Shown: positions 2,646 to 21,840 of the stretch, piece after piece
Position numbering within the stretch: position 1 is the stretch's first letter
How the letters are laid out: each line of letters opens with the position of its first letter
NCBI GenBank assembly: GCA_963082975.1
Contig: OY720350.1
Location: forward strand, 39,239,851 to 39,303,850
Direction: 5' to 3'
Origin: Labia minor
Taxonomy: Eukaryota > Arthropoda > Insecta > Dermaptera > Spongiphoridae
DNA length: 64,000 nucleotides
Translations under genes and position numbers: made by a program
The notes under the pieces: generated by a model
The model's input: the letters and a program-made list of their open reading frames with translations, nothing else
The model's database searches: none
Told to the model about the DNA's origin: nothing

Positions 2646-3490
2646 GTCACGGATTTATTGACCTGCTTTTTTATTTAAAAAATACTAAACGATTTTTAAA
2701 ATAAATTTTTATATTAATACAATTAAATTACAAAATAAAATGTAATTTTTTATGTGATTATTTCATATTTAAACAAAATACCTATATAAATAAAGTTTTA
2801 AGAGGGGTTTGTATTCTTTCCTCCTGGTAGAAAACCTTGTCCTCATCATTCGGCCTAAATCCATTATAATTATATAGAATTATTGACTATTTATTTAAAT
2901 ATAAACCTATAAATAATATATACTAAAATGATAAATAATAACCTTATCAAATTAAAATTATAATATTACATTTAATTGAATTTTAGTACGTAAATATCTA
3001 GCATTGAGTTATTTATAAAATAACAGAATCGAATCACTTTTTATTCAATTTCAATAAGTGTATCTATATTCATAATATTATATATGTATTATATTATATC
3101 TTGAATGTCTGACATCTAGGTTCGTTTTAATTCTAAAGGTCCAAGGTGAACTGGCGTGGATACTTAAGAACATGCAAATGCGTTTATATTTTCACTTTCA
3201 TCGTCTTGAAGAATACATACTACTTTTATAACCAATCATTTCACTCCCCACTTAGATATCCAGAATCATTCCACATTCCTTAAAAACCGAATTAATTTAT
3301 ATAATATTGAATGTAAAATTTTATTATTTATTTTAATCAATGAATTCGAGAACTTTCGAGTTCTGTATAGCCACAACGATAGATTCAGAAAAAGAAAGAA
3401 TGAAAATCATTTTGATAATTTATTTATAATATAAAATTAGTAAACTTAGAAAAATTTTTTTTTTTTAATTTTAAAGAAATTTTCGTTTTT
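2646..3490. other. AT-rich, no feature seen
   Basis: Mostly A+T with no match to the local repeat families. A slightly higher-GC stretch at about 3120-3280 is open in no frame for long. Confidence 0.45.
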
Positions 3491-4181
3491 GTATTGCGAT
3501 CACGAAAATTTTCGATGTCAAGATTTTGATGTTTTTATACGTTTTGAAGGTCCCTGAGTCATTTTCACTAATTGTAAGGTTGTGTGTGTGTATGTGTGTC
3601 TCTGTGGGTGTGGGTGTGTAGACAAGATTACCCAAAAACGGTTTGAGCTAGAATCATGAAATTTGGTACATGGGCATTATTCAAAATTCGTAGTTTTCTA
3701 TCAACTTTTGAAAAATGTAGCTCTTTCGGAAGAGGGTCATTATCTACAAAGTTTTCATTTTTTTTCTTCTAAACTGACCGTAAAAATATAGATTTATGTT
3801 TTTTACATGATTAAAAATTGTATAAAACTGCTATATATAGAATTTCAGCTTGATTGAATTGCTGAAAGTACCGGAATTAATTTTTTAACACTCCAAATCA
3901 CGCGCCAGCACGTGCCGTGGTGCCATCAACAAAGAGCCAAACATGCACTAGTTTAATAAATATTATTTATTAATTTTAATTTTAATCCATAATTTAATTA
4001 ATTAATTTTAATTCATAATTTAATTAATTAATTTTAATTTATAATTTAATTAATTAATTTTAATTTATAATTTAATTAATTAATTTTAATTTATAATTTA
4101 ATTAAATAAAATTAATTTAAATATAATATATGTTAGTTAATTCAATTATAATTGCGAGATAGTCGAGTGGAGACCCTCCAG
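3491..4181 (+). mobile_element. Family A Helentron-like element
   Basis: It starts at GTATTGCGATC, so the first 20 bases of the family 5' end are missing, and it runs to the complete 3' end GCGAGATAGT plus the GAGTG hairpin at about 4153-4181. The internal GT tract is at 3580-3620. A 26-bp unit rich in AATTTAATTAA is tandemly repeated about five times at 3980-4105, an expansion not seen in the other copies. Confidence 0.88.
3980..4105. repeat. 26-bp AT-rich tandem repeat inside family A copy
   Basis: About five near-identical 26-bp units (TTTAATTTATAATTTAATTA core) sit where other A copies have one or two units. Confidence 0.8.
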
Positions 4182-7880: not shown

Positions 7881-9740
7881 ATGGATCGTTGGCTACAAAC
7901 TGGTTCAACACAGAAACGGAAAGAATCAGATGATGAGGCATCAACAGCAAACTCTACCAAGAAACGCAAAACTAGAAAATATTCGGATGATTATTTATCA
8001 TTTGGATTTACTTATATTTGCAACAATGATGTGGAAAGACCAGTCTGCGTTCTATGTCAGGAAAGTTTATCCAATGAAAGTATGAAACCTGCTAATCTCA
8101 GACGTCATTTACAAACAAAGCACAGCGAGCATGTTAGTAAGTCTATCGAATTTTTTAAAATGAAAAAAGAAGAACTTAATTCAAGTCAGAAATTGATGGT
8201 AAAGACGGGATCTGGTGGTATGAGTAAGAAAGCAGTAATGGCATCATATGAAGTAGCTCTACTTATTGCTAAAGCAGGAAAGCCGCATAATATAGCAGAG
8301 CAATTAATTCTTCCTGCTACAAAAGTAATTACAAATATAATGTTAGGAACTAAAGCAGCAAACGATATAAATTTGATTTCATTATCAAATGATACGGTTA
8401 AGAATAGGATTGAAGACATGTCATGTAATATAAAAGAAGAATTAATATCGAGAGTGCGCAAAAGTCACTATTACTCATTACAATTGGATGAAAGTACTGA
8501 TGTCACTAATAATGCCAATTTGTTAGCTTTCATTAGATATGAGTTTGAAAATCAAATACAAGAAGATGTATTGTTTTGTGATTCACTACCTTCACGAACG
8601 ACAGCTAATGACATATTTAACAGTTTGAATAATTTTATAACCGAAAATGAAATAGAGTGGCCAAAATGTGTTGGAATTTGCACTGATGGTGCTCGTGCAA
8701 TGTCAGGTACAAGAACTGGATTGATTGCTCTTATTAAAAATGTTGCGCCTCAGGTTGTTTGGAATCATTGCTGCATTCACAGAGAATCATTAGCAGCCAA
8801 AAATATGTCACCAGATTTGAAAAGAACATTAGACGAAGTAGTTAAAATTGTCAATTTCATTAAGGCTCGTCCACTTAATTCCAGAGTTTTTAAAATTTTG
8901 TGTGAGGAAATGGGTAGTCAACATACACATTTATTATTACATACAGATGTACGTTGGTTGTCCCGCGGGAAAGTACTCATTCGCCTTTTTGAGCTTCGAG
9001 ATGAAATACGATTGTTTTTAATAGATGCGCATTTTGAACTGACCGAATGTTTCAATGATTTTATCTGGTTAGCTAAGGTGGCTTACTTGACTGATATTTT
9101 TACAAAATTGAACGAACTTAATTTGAGCCTGCAAGGTACTGTTGTAAATATATTTAAAGTTGAAGATAAAATAGAAGCAATGATTAAAAAAATCGACTTG
9201 TGGTCGAAACGCATCCAGAACGGTGTATATGAGTCTTTTCCAACTCTCAATGATTTCATAGAAAGCTCCAGTGAAAAATTGCTTAATCAAACGCGTCAAT
9301 TATTTGTTGAACATTTAATTACTTTGAAAAGCAACTTCAGGAAGTATTTTTCTACTCCTGATCCTTGCAATAACTGGATCAGAGATCCATTTAATATGGA
9401 AATTACAAATGCTAAACATTTATCTGCACCTGAACAAGATATTCTCGTGGAATTATCATGTGATACAACTTATAAACTAAAATTTAACAAAACTGAATTG
9501 AGCAACTTTTGGTTACTTCTCAGGTCAGATTATCCTGCGCTTGCAAATAAAGCACTTCAACACTTGATTCCATTCTGCACAACATATTTATGCGAACAAG
9601 CTTTTTCGGTACTATTTTATATTAAGTCTAAATATAGAAACAAATTAAATGTAGAGCCGGATCTTAGATTAAAAGTTTCCAATATTAAGCCAGATATTGA
9701 GATTCTTGTTTCAAGAAAACAACTGCATACATCTCATTAA
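7881..9740 (+). CDS. hAT transposase, BED zinc finger (ZBED5-like)
   Basis: This 619-residue transposase would excise and reinsert the element in the nucleus by a DDE-type mechanism. A basic stretch KKRKTRK (27-33) suggests nuclear import. A BED-type zinc finger is formed by C56, C59, H76 and H81, ending in HLQTKH. The hAT catalytic core follows: first acidic residue D203 in LQLDESTD, second D269 in ICTDGARAMSG, the conserved CCIHRESLAAK block (297-307), DVRWLSRGKVL with W359, and the third acidic residue E572 in TYLCEQAFSVLFYIKSKYRN, the C-terminal hAT dimerisation signature. Length and order match ZBED5/FAM200-like hAT proteins. The start is the first ATG in frame after the possible splice acceptor, and the protein begins MDRWL, common in this group. 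There are no stops or frameshifts. A domesticated host gene is unlikely because the terminal repeats and target duplication are intact. Confidence 0.95.
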   Translation: MDRWLQTGSTQKRKESDDEASTANSTKKRKTRKYSDDYLSFGFTYICNNDVERPVCVLCQESLSNESMKPANLRRHLQTKHSEHVSKSIEFFKMKKEELNSSQKLMVKTGSGGMSKKAVMASYEVALLIAKAGKPHNIAEQLILPATKVITNIMLGTKAANDINLISLSNDTVKNRIEDMSCNIKEELISRVRKSHYYSLQLDESTDVTNNANLLAFIRYEFENQIQEDVLFCDSLPSRTTANDIFNSLNNFITENEIEWPKCVGICTDGARAMSGTRTGLIALIKNVAPQVVWNHCCIHRESLAAKNMSPDLKRTLDEVVKIVNFIKARPLNSRVFKILCEEMGSQHTHLLLHTDVRWLSRGKVLIRLFELRDEIRLFLIDAHFELTECFNDFIWLAKVAYLTDIFTKLNELNLSLQGTVVNIFKVEDKIEAMIKKIDLWSKRIQNGVYESFPTLNDFIESSSEKLLNQTRQLFVEHLITLKSNFRKYFSTPDPCNNWIRDPFNMEITNAKHLSAPEQDILVELSCDTTYKLKFNKTELSNFWLLLRSDYPALANKALQHLIPFCTTYLCEQAFSVLFYIKSKYRNKLNVEPDLRLKVSNIKPDIEILVSRKQLHTSH

Positions 9741-11341: not shown

Positions 11342-11809
11342 AATAAGTTGACCTGTGGCTAGGTCCGAACCGACCGACGGTTTAAAGTAAATTAATTTCC
11401 AGCTACAGAAACAATTTCAAATAATTTTAATATATCTATTAATGTAATAAAAAACAGATATGGATACATAAATAATAAATATAAACATTTTTAATTTTAT
11501 TTTATTTATAATATATATGCAAGACCAGGCTGTGACGTCATGAATGGCTGGATGACGTCATATAATTTTAAATCAAGAAAAAATTAATAAAGATGATTTT
11601 TCTCGAGGATAAAACCAATACAAAGTGCATGATATGTAAAATATCTCCTCATGTGAAATTTGTTGTGAAAATAACCCTTCCCTTCCTATCGTCGATCGCT
11701 TATACTACCACTTCCTGTTTCTGGATTTGCACCAAAAGTTGATCAATTCATCCCACTGATGCATTAAGTAAATATACCAAATTTCATCAAAATCGGTTGA
11801 GCCGTTCAG
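11342..11809 (-). mobile_element. Family B Helentron-like element, 5' truncated
   Basis: The minus strand has the complete B 3' end (GTCGGTCGGT then the GACCTG hairpin and AACTTATT) and the body to GAGCCGTTCAG, where it is joined to a reverse-transcriptase fragment. The GGAC microsatellite and 5' end are lost. It contains two TGACGTCA octamers at 11533 and 11553. Confidence 0.88.
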
Positions 11810-12036
11810 AATGGGAGAGAAAAATAATGGCGAAAAATATATTGATGGGGAGACCGAGTGGGAAAAGTCCGCTTGGAAGACCAAGGACGCGGTGGGTAGA
11901 TAATGTGGAAAGGGACGTGAGAGAGATGGGAAAGGGTAGGGAATGGAGGGCTGTGGCTCAGAATAGGGATACTTGGAGAAATGTGGTTGCTGCGGCCAAG
12001 AACTTTCTTGTTCCGAAGAGCCACAGAGATAGATAG
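11810..12036 (+). pseudogene. Non-LTR reverse transcriptase C-terminal tail, open frame
   Basis: This is the cleanest example of the tail: GRPSGKSPLGRPRTRWVDN, VERDVREMGKG, then AQNRDTWRNVVAAAKNF and a stop followed by GATAGATAGA. It is a fragment of about 75 codons fused to a B element. The catalytic RT is missing, so it is inactive even though the frame is open. Confidence 0.85.
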
Positions 12037-13164
12037 ACAGATTTTGATGATTATAATCGTCCAACACATAATTGGACCCAAAAATAAGTAAACGCTCTTT
12101 TTATCTAATCACTGTATTGCTCAAGTCTTACTCATAGTAACCATAAATGACGTTGGTTAATTTTATGTATTTTTTTTTACAGTTTTCATGAATTTTTCGA
12201 TTTTTTTTTTACATTTTTCATGAATTTTTCGATTTTTTTTTTCATTTTTGAAATTTTTTGTAGTTTTTTTTTATTTTGTCATTTTTCTTTCTTCAAATTT
12301 TTGTCATTTATGAATCGTTACCTCAGTTTAAAATTATTTATTAACATTTATAAATGTTTTATTTCAAAGATTTTACTGTCACATTATAAATAATTGAATT
12401 GTAAAATTTAGTTTTCATATATTTTACAATAAAATGAATATTCATTATAAAATGTATTTTAAAGTTGTGATTAAGTATATTAAAATAAATAAAAGGATTT
12501 TAAAAAAATAGTTATTGATTAGTTACTGAAAGATAAAATCCAGATATTTATTATAATATTTTTTAATTCTAGAAATTTCCATACAAAGCATGTTTATAAT
12601 ATTTAAATTTTTATTTTAAGTTCTAATATTATATAATATTAAAACTAAAATTAAATGAAATTGGATATTACTTTTAATTGATTAATAATTTCAAAAACAA
12701 AGTAATATTTTTTATATTTAAATTTATATTTTGAAAAATTATGCAATTTGCAAATTTGAGTGAAAACGAAGATCCAAATGAGAGAAAACGTTAATTGACT
12801 AAAGAAAGAAGGGCTCGATGGTTATCTTGGAATAAAAGTAAAATAAGTTTGAATATTTTTGTTGATGTGATATTGAATCGTTATTTTCTTTATACATATT
12901 TATATTTTATAGAATTATTTATTTCTTGACATATTTTGTTACTTTGTATTCGTTGTAAATATTACTGAAAAGTAGTAGTAAAAATTTATAAGGTAGCTCA
13001 TTTTATTTAATTTTATTAAATATTTTTTTTAACTAAAATGTCCTATGATTATATAAATTAAACATTGGTTTATTAAACCATGTTCATTTTTCTGAGTACA
13101 TCTATTCAGAAATTTTGAAGTCGAAAAAAAAGATATGCTACTCACAAAAGTTATGAACAAAGGA

Positions 13165-14905: not shown

Positions 14906-15300
14906 ACAGATATAGTAATGAATAAACGCGTTTTAAAGCAGACAAATTATTTCAAATACTTTTTAATAAGAAATGTCTATCAAGTATACAAAGAAAAGAT
15001 AAGTGAAGCAAGTTTAAATTATTATTTAATACATAGTAATTTGTTGAATGTCTGTATGCGAAAGGTTTTAATTCATTTCATTCAATAAGTATATTAAAAT
15101 ATTCATATACACGACGAGGTTCAGTGTATATATTGAGTAGCATATCTTTTTTTTCGACTTCAAAATTTCTGAATAGATGTCCTCAGAAAAATGAACATGG
15201 TTTTTTAAACCAATGTTTAATTTATATCATCATAGGACATCTTAGTGAAAAAAAATATTTAATAAAATTAAATAAAATATGAGCTACCTTATAAATTTTT

Positions 15301-16924
15301 AGCGACCGACGATAGTAAGGGAGGTATTGTTTTCACACCAAATTTCACATGTGGAGATTTTTACATATCTCCCCGAATCATGCATTTTCTTAACAGAAAA
15401 AAGTATTTTTAGCATGTCTGTCCGTCCGTCCGTCTTTCCGTATAGATGTGTACAGCCTGAACGGCTGAACGGATTTTGATGAAATTTGGTATATTTGCTT
15501 AATGCATCAGTGGGATGAATTGGTCAACTTTTGGTGCAAATCCGGAAACCGGAAGTGGTAGTATTAGCGATCGACGATAGGAAGGGAAGGGTTATTTTCA
15601 TACCAAATTTCACATGAGGAGATTTTTTACATATCATCACGAATCATTCCTTTGCATTGGTTTTATACTCGAGAAAAATCATATTTATTAGTTTTTTCTT
15701 AATTAAAATTATATGACGTCATCCAGCCATTCATGACGTCACAGCCTGGTCTTACATATATATTATAAATAAAATAAAATTAAAAATATTTATGTTATAT
15801 CCATATCTGTTTTTTATTACATTAATAGATATATTAAAATTATTTGAAATTGTTTCTGTAGCTGGAAATTAATTTATTTCAAACCGTCGCACAGTGGTAT
15901 GAAACGCCAAAAAAGCTGGCCAAAAATCGAAAATTGAAAAATTTTTTTTTGCATGTCGTTTATGGTATTTTGTTGAAGACATATTTATGTACGAAAAGCT
16001 GAAAATGTAGAGCACTACCATGACTCTACGAGTTTTTACTTTCTCCCGAGATTTCCCAAAACGTCTGAAATTCGAGCTCAGTCAAAATTGGTGTTTCGTT
16101 TCATAGAAAAGTTTCATTTGCAACTTGCGACATGGAAACTGTTGCTGGAGGTACATACATGGACTTTTTTATTTTGTTTGCTAGAAATGCATGTATTATA
16201 TTGATATTGGCTGATTTAAACCGCTTGTGTCAGAAAATGTAACCTGACGAAAAACTTTTCAAAAAACATTCCGCATTTTTTACATTGGTGACCATTGGTG
16301 ACAATCTCATTTGAATCATAAAGATAAAGGTCTATAGATAAAGAATCATGAAGAAAAAATTGCTCCTTTTTGCCCCATTTGTTCCTATGAATTTTTTTCC
16401 GAGCGCGCGAACGTCAACAGACTAGGGCCTATGGGACCCACAGGTACCTGCAGGTTAGCGCGATTAATATCTCGTTAAGGTGCACCTGTCACTTTTCAAA
16501 AGAAGGAAAGATATTTGAAGTAAAATCAATGTAACAGCTCACCTTTTCTCGAATTCCGTCGCCTATTTTAGATGCATAATATAGTTGTTCTCCTTTTTCT
16601 CTGCATGACGTCATTTTTTGAAAAATCAACACATCATTTGAAATTTATCATTTTTTTCGTACAATCTAACTTCAATTTCGAAATTTTCGGCTCAAAAAAT
16701 CCCAGAGAACATACAATTGCGAATCTGACGTCACTTTTCTAAAAATCTGTCCGCCATTTTGAATTCGCCATTTTTTTTGTCAAATTTAAATTTCCTGACT
16801 CTCAAAACTATTGCCTACAAAATTTCAAGCTGTTTCACCAACATCTTCATTTTTGGCCAGCTATTTGGGCGTTTCAGACCACTGTGCGTCGGTCGGTTCG
16901 GACCTGGCCACAGGTCAACTTATT
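15301..16924 (+). mobile_element. Family B Helentron-like element, complete, with nested insertion
   Basis: The 5' end is GCGACCGACGATAG. The 3' end is GTCGGTCGGT, then a GACCTG-GCCA-CAGGTC hairpin and AACTTATT. It sits in the right arm at a site that is uninterrupted in the left arm (AAATTTTTACTACT, reverse-complemented at about 12985), with no target duplication. It is split at 15890-16886 by a Transib element. TGACGTCA octamers lie at 15714 and 15734, and the TGTCCGTCCGTC tract at 15417. Confidence 0.93.
15885..16891. mobile_element. Non-autonomous Transib element with RSS-like ends
   Basis: The element spans 15890-16886 (997 bp), flanked by CGTCG at 15885-15889 and 16887-16891, matching the CGNCG target preference described for Transib. 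Both ends begin CACAGTG, the V(D)J heptamer. The inverted repeats agree at 35 of the first 38 positions. After a 23-base spacer lies CCAAAAATC (left) or CCAAAAATG (right), resembling the nonamer position reported for Transib and 23-RSS. No transposase frame is present inside, so mobilisation would need an enzyme from elsewhere. Confidence 0.93.
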
Positions 16925-17811
16925 ACTACTACTTTTCAGTAATATTTACAACGAATACAAAGTAACAAAATATGTCAAGAAATAAATAATTCTATAAAAT
17001 ATAAATATGTATAAAGAAAATAACAATTCAATATCACATCAACAAAAATATTCAAACTTATTTTACTTTTATTCCAAGAGTCAATTAACGTTTTCTCTCA
17101 TTTGGATCTTCGTTTTCACTCAAATTTGCAAATTGCATAATTTTTCAAAATATAAATTTAAATATAAAAAATATTACTTTGTTTTTGAAATTATTAATCA
17201 ATTAAAAGTAATATCCAATTTCATTTAATTTTAGTTTTAATATTATATAATATTAGAACTTAAAATAAAAATTTAAATATTATAAACATGCTTTGTATGG
17301 AAATTTCTAGAATTAAAAAATATTATAATAAATATCTGGATTTTATCTTTCAGTAACTAATCAATAACTATTTTTTTAAAATCCTTTTATTTATTTTAAT
17401 ATACTTAATCACAACTTTAAAATACATTTTATAATGAATATTCATTTTATTGTAAAATATATGAAAACTAAATTTTACAATTCAATTATTTATAATGTGA
17501 CAGTAAAATCTTTGAAATAAAACATTTATAAATGTTAATAAATAATTTTAAACTGAGGTAACGATTCATAAATGACAAAAATTTGAAGAAAGAAAAATGA
17601 CAAAATAAAAAAAAACTACAAAAAATTTCAAAAATGAAAAAAAAAATCGAAAAATTCATGAAAAATGTAAAAAAAAAATCGAAAAATTCATGAAAACTGT
17701 AAAAAAAAATACATAAAATTAATCAACGTCATTTATGGTTACTATGAGTAAGACTTGAGCAATACAGTGATTAGATAAAAAGAGCGTTTACTTATTTTTG
17801 GGTCCAATTAT

Positions 17812-18048
17812 GTGTTGGACGATTATAATCATCAAAATCTGTCTATCTATCTCTGTGGCTCTTCGGAACAAGAAAGTTCTTGGCCGCAGCAACCACATTT
17901 CTCCAAGTATCCCTATTCTGAGCCACAGCCCTCCATTCCCTACCCTTTCCCATCTCTCTCACGTCCCTTTCCACATTATCTACCCACCGCGTCCTTGGTC
18001 TTCCAAGCGGACTTTTCCCACTCGGTCTCCCCATCAATATATTTTTAG
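17812..18048 (-). pseudogene. Reverse-transcriptase tail, right-arm copy
   Basis: Mirror copy of 11810-12036 with the same GRPSGKSPLGRPRTRW and RNVVAAAKNF motifs and stop. It starts later because of the deletion at about 18049. It is part of the duplicated arm, not an independent insertion. Confidence 0.88.
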
Positions 18049-20960: not shown

Positions 20961-21840
20961 TCTTATATATAAAATTCTCGCGTTACAAAACTTTGAAATC
21001 ATACTCCTCCGAAACGGCTGGACCGATTCTTATGAAATTTTTTATACATATTCAGTAGGTCTCAAAGAAGGTTTTTATTTCATTATCAAACCGCTAATTG
21101 GTAAGGTGTGTCCAGGGGGTGGTATTTACCTAAAAATAGTTCAGTTACAATGCTAGATCATAGAGGCACTGCTGGCGATAATTTGACCTCTATATATATC
21201 CTAAATAGACACCTAAAAAGAAGAATCATTCGTGGGTGAGCGTGCTAAGGAGTTATCTTATGACTTTGCTTCCTCAGTTCGAAACTCTCAAAGGCACATT
21301 TTTTTTTTATTTTTTTTACAAATTTATTAATATTTATTCTTTTAATATTTTATTAAATTAAATTTTATTAAATAAAATTTTATTATTAAATTTTATTTTA
21401 TTAAATTAATAATTATGTCAATTAATTTTTTGTGCATAAATAAACATATATAAAAAACTATATTTAAAATTTTAGTCATTAAAAAATTTATGAAAAACTT
21501 TATCGGAGCAACCTTTTTAAATGGCAAGTTTCGATGTGAAAAGATATTAATACCACGAATAACTATTATACCCACTAGAAATTCTCTAGAAATTATTTAC
21601 ATGGCAAATCAATGTTTGCCGGGTCAGCTATAATAATATATAATTAATTTACTGATTAAATAAAAATATATTATACAAGAAAACAAATAAATGTCTTATC
21701 TATTTATACTGATTGATACAAAATGGATGAAAACCTTTTACATACACACTTTCAACCAAAAACTATGTATCACTCGGGGGTACAGGGGGCGGAGCCCCCG
21801 TCTAGGTGTGGAGAGCGCCGAAGGCGCTCGGAGCAGCTAG
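20961..21840 (+). mobile_element. Non-autonomous Helitron with two successive 3' ends
   Basis: It begins TCTTATATATAAAATTCTCG after an A and ends CTAG before a T, the A-T target of canonical Helitrons. The body carries the common Helitron stretch around GAAACGGCTGGACCGATTC. An internal 3' terminus lies at 21603-21630 (GGCAAA-TCAATG-TTTGCC hairpin then GGGTCAGCTA). It is followed by a 210-bp module with two GC-rich hairpins (21785-21799 and 21813-21829) and the final CTAG. No Rep/helicase is encoded. Reads as a terminator read-through that picked up a second 3' end. Confidence 0.85.

Follow-up and report, generated by a model that had tools for sequence, protein, structure and literature searches.

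The 64,000-nucleotide stretch of DNA analysed here (the window; C9:39239851-39303850, 26% G+C, in a genome of 604 Mb) contains a 997-bp element that is very probably a non-autonomous Transib, a transposon moving by RAG-like cut and paste into a palindromic target, found mostly in one repeat termed B, and leaving excision scars there. The features of the locus are listed below.

15298..15889, + strand: 5′ part of host repeat B, ~590 bp, 87-92% identical to the other B copies of the window; start approximate
near 15304-15311, + strand: 5′ subterminal repeat of B, diverged here, GCGACCGACG
15883..15889: ACCGTCG, left portion of the interrupted target palindrome ACCGTCGGT, which is unbroken in four window copies
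15885..15889: left target duplication CGTCG; empty sites have one copy
15890..16886, + strand: non-autonomous Transib, 997 bp, A arm left and B arm right, delimited by its inverted ends and boundaries
15890..15927, + strand: left 38-bp terminal inverted repeat, CACAGTG + 23 bases + CCAAAAAT, conserved across 47 copies
16849..16886, - strand: right 38-bp terminal inverted repeat, CACAGTG + 23 bases + CCAAAAAT, recognised by its match to the left end
16887..16891: right target duplication CGTCG; empty sites have one copy
16887..16893: remainder of the palindrome ACCGTCGGT, CGTCGGT, including the duplication
16887..16924, + strand: 3′ end of B, with subterminal CGTCGGTCGGTT, stem-loop GACCTGGCCACAGGTC, and end AACTTATT

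Structure of the element and its host repeat

The interval 15885-16891 proposed in an earlier note on this DNA proved exact for the element together with both duplications, the element proper occupying 15890-16886. CACAGTG followed by a 23-base spacer, described there for both ends, was borne out by comparison of the ends. The two 38-bp ends were identical at 35 of 38 positions, and the 23 bases were followed by CCAAAAATC at the left end and by CCAAAAATG at the right end. These ends were also recovered in an independent detection of a 45-nt inverted repeat, part of which is flanking sequence. The target duplication CGTCG was present on both sides, as the note had stated, and four unbroken B copies on the minus strand of the window (near 11370, 23476, 30234, and 39912) read ACCGTCGGTCGG with a single CGTCG. 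The same four copies confirmed that the element sits in a host B element whose unbroken sequence is known. No transposase frame was present inside the element in the list of open reading frames, where the longest frame had 68 residues and overran the right end of the element; the window copy does not encode its own transposase, as an autonomous transposon would.

B is a repeat of ~620 bp with window copies near 11375, 15300, 23481, 30239, 39917, and 43036. Its 5′ start was set by comparing copies from the window and the genome, and the flanks diverged past AACTTATT in nearly all copies listed. By eye, B showed ACCGACCGACG at the 5′ end, CGTCGGTCGGT and the GACCTGGCCACAGGTC loop at the 3′ end, and T-rich ends; its subterminal inverted repeats, 3′ stem-loop, and TT-type junctions, also judged by eye, are those of DINE-1/HINE repeats, the diagnostic features being taken from the available part of PMC4067079. 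DINE-1/HINE repeats (non-autonomous Helentrons) have in common with B the subterminal inverted repeats, the 3′ stem-loop, T-rich junctions, and a GTCC microsatellite. Judged by this structure, B is a DINE-1/Helentron-like repeat.

Two other features of the window were recorded. The 1.1-kb stretch adjoining B (16917-18000) recurs inverted 4 kb away (11879-12987) with 97.4% identity. On the plus strand, 7881-9740 contains a 619-residue open frame that matches BED zinc-finger and hAT dimerisation domains weakly, in each case below the Pfam cut-off; it probably encodes a hAT transposase or represents a gene that arose from one.

Copies of the family in the genome

The 19-base end CACAGTGGTMTGAAACGCC matched the genome 228 times (114 + 114), and the pattern read backwards gave 0 matches; the end pattern is not due to chance. 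If most elements are two-ended, the matches would correspond to roughly 114 elements. We collected 52 loci: 29 top-scoring matches of a DNA search (L002-L030), the query of which included two flank bases, CG, and slightly favours such sites; 20 loci of contig C1 (L065-L084), picked with the end pattern free of flank bases; both transposase loci described below; and the window copy. L035-L064 were C1 elements again and were not recounted. Four loci (L012, L065, L066, and L067) had no clean end pair, so that 48 of the 52 were scored, and L003 and L004, which have common flanks on two contigs, were merged to give 47 intact copies.

In these 47 copies, the heptamer CACAGTG was found at all 94 ends, and the nonamer was CCAAAAATC in 47 of 47 A arms and CCAAAAATG in 46 of 47 B arms. 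The 5-bp duplication was exact in 46 copies (CGTCG in 44 and CGGCG in two), the exception being L017 with CGTCG/CTTCG. Other ends or duplications of a length other than 5 bp, which would have spoken against the earlier note, were absent from the 47 copies. Element size classes spanned 769 to 3,647 bp, and the short elements retained both ends without most of the coding region.

Two of the damaged loci had unusual structures. In L067 (1253-1279), a 27-base remnant of one end was followed directly by the right duplication in a B site, which we interpret as incomplete loss of an element. In L066 (1920-1965; the L036 element), an inverted flank copy, ATTTCAAACCGTCG followed by CGACGGTTTGAAAT, took the place of the first element bases, with the junction near a TGAAA common to the element end. 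The inverted flank resembles either an extended run of P nucleotides derived from hairpinned flanking DNA or the product of a template switch.

Autonomous partner

A profile search of the genome with PF12940 detected two candidate loci, each with a stop-free frame of 612 residues, at scores of 18.6 and 18.2 bits (E 0.07 and 0.09) that lie below the family cut-off. Both frames were located between the same ends as those of the window element, at distances of 3,646 and 3,647 bp. The genome contains two copies of the RAG1-like transposase sharing these 38-bp ends for which the earlier note had proposed a search. The two 3.65-kb copies were 99.4% identical and occupied the B site in opposite orientations. 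The 612-residue protein (P0001) matched 6pqn, which we take to be the HzTransib transposase structure (match label: DNA-mediated transposase), with an E value of 9e-107 over residues 102-575; it matched vertebrate RAG1 chains with E values of 2e-4 to 3e-3 and Pfam RAG1 with 25.9 bits against a cut-off of 25. D207, D315, and E529 of P0001 aligned to the published catalytic D126, D225, and E436 and fit their spacing, with the numbering offset worked out by hand. The frames longer than 120 residues in the 3.65-kb copies were the 612-residue frame and, upstream of it, one of 161 or 156 residues, which may be a first exon and gave nothing above the cut-off in a Pfam search.

The window copy aligned collinearly with 1-536, 537-670, and 3354-3646 of the 3,646-bp autonomous copy, and ~65 bp of the window copy had no counterpart there. 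The Transib identity put forward earlier is supported through this partner; the window element alone, having no transposase, did not establish it. The partner encodes a RAG1-core-related DDE transposase with conserved catalytic D, D, and E, a frame that the window copy does not have, and the inverted ends opening with a CAC heptamer and the GC-rich 5-bp target duplication described above are likewise those of Transib. The comparison thus supports the window element as a non-autonomous Transib, and the family is a new Transib family rather than a new kind of element; it is ordinary in kind. The two near-identical, open-frame 3.65-kb copies are candidates for an active Transib, and the family was probably active recently.

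Target choice

Forty-five of the 47 intact copies were inserted at one position of B, with the two orientations represented 23 and 22 times. This position is the usual target of the family, a result beyond what the earlier note could see. Three of the four damaged loci were at the B site, with L065 elsewhere, as were 15 of 15 further one-sided reads, seven of which represented new elements; with all elements pooled, 55 of 58 were at the B site. In the least biased subset, comprising all elements detected on contig C1 by the end pattern, the proportion was 21 of 23.

The palindrome ACCGNCGGT appears to be the target. The window contains 37 CGNCG, of which 5 are the B site, but just 5 ACCGNCGGT, all of them the B site. 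Across the genome, ACCGNCGGT occurred at 21,151 sites, against 2,073 matches to the reversed pattern, and empty B sites with the exact sequence numbered 15,657. B therefore supplies at least 74% of ACCGNCGGT; this is a floor, as the exact count leaves out B variants, TTCTGTGCC among them. The other (5′) end of B, which also contains CGTCGGTCGG, served as a control site: it reads ATCGTCGGT, against ACCGTCGGT at the target, and differs from the target by one base within nine as well as by bases further out. The control site TACTATCGTCGGTCGGTAA, with 25,156 copies, held 0 of the 58 family copies.

In Drosophila, hopper and transib2 produce a 5-bp duplication within the palindromic target CCANTGG, which extends one base beyond the duplication, as described in the available part of PMC3276498. 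This is the C-CGNCG-G layout of the present family, with central CG dinucleotides here and CA/TG in hopper and transib2. Together, the share of ACCGNCGGT held by B and the one-base extension in Drosophila suggest that preference for the palindrome explains most of the concentration. Recognition of B itself by the transposase, through sequence or chromatin beyond the nine bases, would instead make the association a dedicated one rather than a by-product; the 45 of 47 copies in B do exceed the 74% floor (binomial p 1e-4), but this figure is a floor with variants such as TTCTGTGCC uncounted, and the two-ended copies outside B (L003 and L079) were inserted at CGGCG in half-matches of the palindrome. 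We consider such recognition unlikely. Similarly doubtful is the broader picture of a RAG-family transposon resident at the 3′ subterminal inverted repeat of B, recognising B beyond the palindrome, cycling in and out, and leaving an archive of RAG-like coding joints and P nucleotides without an immune system.

Probable excision scars

Element-free B sites with an expanded target numbered 158 genome-wide, and the pattern read backwards gave 0. The same expansion pattern at the control site gave 14 (Fisher odds ratio of 18 for target versus control). The pattern is blind to larger deletions. Among the 100 listed of the 158 scars, 70 were exact CGTCG-CGTCG, 14 had an additional TCGG, five an additional G, three an additional C, and two an additional CGACG; one had CGACGG added with one base lost, and five were of other forms. 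Eleven of the 100 resembled hairpin-opening additions. We read the exact fused form as clean rejoining after excision. Addition of C to the left flank, of G to the right flank, and of CGACG would be the products expected from off-centre opening of a hairpinned flank, although single C or G additions, P-nucleotides by their position, could also be simple duplications of the neighbouring base. The scars are probably excisions.

The scars might instead be ordinary 5-bp tandem duplications caused by replication slippage at the repetitive CGTCGGTCGG and unrelated to the transposon. The additional-TCGG class (14 of the 100 listed) fits slippage, and three of the 14 control expansions belonged to the same class. 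One control expansion was CGTCG-G-CGTCG, the same form as five of the 100 listed scars, which counts against the excision reading. However, the same CGTCGGTCGG at the control site (25,156 intact copies) gave 0 exact CGTCGCGTCG in 14 expansions, compared with 70 among the 100 target-site scars listed, and palindromic CGACG additions are not products of slippage. Slippage as the general source of the scars is very improbable given this matched control, and we retained it for the additional-TCGG class only.

Probable independence of the insertions

An alternative is that a few B copies caught the element long ago and the rolling-circle spread of B multiplied the filled and scarred copies. The location of nearly all copies in B would agree with such co-amplification. 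Host-B similarity was compared for 62 of 69 rows, seven having been dropped as truncated or divergent. Scar-bearing B copies were mutual nearest relatives in 3 of 19 cases against a permutation mean of 5.6, indicating no grouping, and orientation agreed with host similarity in 22 of 39 cases against a mean of 19.0 (p 0.24), indicating no clustering. Host-B similarity and element similarity showed a weak Mantel correlation in 24 copies (r 0.23, p 0.044), which leaves some co-duplication possible and favours co-amplification to that extent.

Against co-amplification, the two orientations were equal in number (23 and 22), and near-identical B hosts carried elements of several sizes (769 to 3,647 bp). 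The hosts of L033 and L075 were identical over the compared 320 bp, yet their elements were in opposite orientation with lengths of 3,646 and 1,241; the hosts of L015 and L025 were 99.2% alike, whereas their elements were 91.3% alike. DNA beyond B differed in 20 of 20 scar loci (11 exact and nine chosen for variant forms), and neither orientation nor scar clustered on host similarity. Co-amplification, largely refuted by the clustering test, was set aside as highly unlikely, with the Mantel p of 0.044 left standing.

Resemblance of the ends to recombination signal sequences

CACAGTG is the consensus heptamer of recombination signal sequences (RSSs). Across the 47 copies, the two arms differed at 0 of 7 heptamer, 3 of 23 spacer, and 1 of 9 nonamer positions, and over bases 40-70 the two arm consensuses differed at 23 of 31 positions. 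Similarity between the arms stopped at base 38, inside the nonamer position, the expected endpoint of an RSS whose spacer has 23 bases. The nonamer position was conserved at 93 of 94 ends and the spacer nearly as well, in what is one young family only. Of the RSS-like spacing claimed earlier, the conserved position of CCAAAAAT stands; the spacer is conserved too, and a heptamer/spacer/nonamer architecture is therefore not separable within one young family. In the end at 15890-15927, two GCCAAAAA units lie 13 bp apart and place A-rich blocks ~10 and 23 from the heptamer.

The likeness may accordingly be a chance effect of an A-rich tail, the nonamer being the second GCCAAAAA unit of a repeated binding site. 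The A arm reads GCCAAAAAAGCTG and then GCCAAAAATCG, and the equal conservation of spacer and nonamer points the same way; on the other hand, arm similarity stops within the nonamer position at base 38, the heptamer equals the RSS consensus, and the protein is a RAG1 relative. We regard the repeated-unit explanation as possible, though rather less probable than a true resemblance. Given that the spacer is nearly as conserved and that CCAAAAAT is the second of the two GCCAAAAA units, the resemblance can be called real for the heptamer but suggestive for the nonamer, and it is symmetric (23/23). Symmetric Transib spacers are given as 20-22 bp, with some 12/23 cases, in the available text of PMC8355894, which does not present 23/23 as a rule there.

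Proposed mechanism and comparison with known systems

The preferred reading, RAG-like cut and paste of a non-autonomous Transib, builds on the ends, duplications, empty sites, open-frame partner, target concentration, and site-specific scars observed here. The autonomous 3.65-kb relative would supply the DDE transposase, its protein presumably being made and moving these copies. The transposase would bind the common 38-bp ends and cut precisely at CACAGTG, probably forming hairpins on the flanking DNA; hairpins as the excision intermediate are suggested by analogy with HzTransib, for which such an intermediate is known (available part of PMC6941560). Insertion would occur into palindromic ACCGNCGGT with a 5-bp stagger on CGNCG, and B, with many thousands of copies holding most such palindromes, would act as a landing pad. 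After departure of an element, the flanks would be joined again, in most cases as a fusion of the two duplications and at times with P-nucleotide-like bases added.

The HzTransib transposase of Helicoverpa zea is homologous to P0001 over residues 102-575 with the catalytic D, D, and E aligned. In the part of PMC1852546 consulted, HzTransib has in common with the present family a 5-bp duplication and a similar full length (3,518 bp), and the duplication of its reported insertion is GCTCG, against CGTCG/CGGCG here. The CGTCG/CGGCG of the present family forms part of a longer palindrome, and its insertions cluster in a single repeat. For hopper and transib2, we found no report of confinement to one repeat in the available texts, aside from a single insertion of a Transib-family element (M4DM) into an INE-1 copy (PMC10299278). 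No description of a Transib tied to one repeat, or of Transib scars, was found in the literature searched, a search that covered few subscription papers.

V(D)J signals and RAG1 have in common with the present family CACAGTG, the 23-base spacer, the A-rich block, and RAG1 core homology, and the scars resemble V(D)J coding joints with P nucleotides. Unlike V(D)J signals, both ends have 23-base spacers with no 12/23 pair, the spacer is as conserved as the nonamer, and the element is a transposon with a target-site duplication. Among known elements, Transib is the nearest relative of the transposon considered to be the source of RAG1. With one target in thousands of near-identical B copies, empty, filled, and scarred copies can be compared base by base. 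The family thereby provides a natural assay of target choice, in which the used site and an unused site differ by one base within nine, and of flank repair following RAG-like cleavage, a process otherwise studied in cells and in vitro. If the scars are excisions, they make RAG-like excision readable from a genome.
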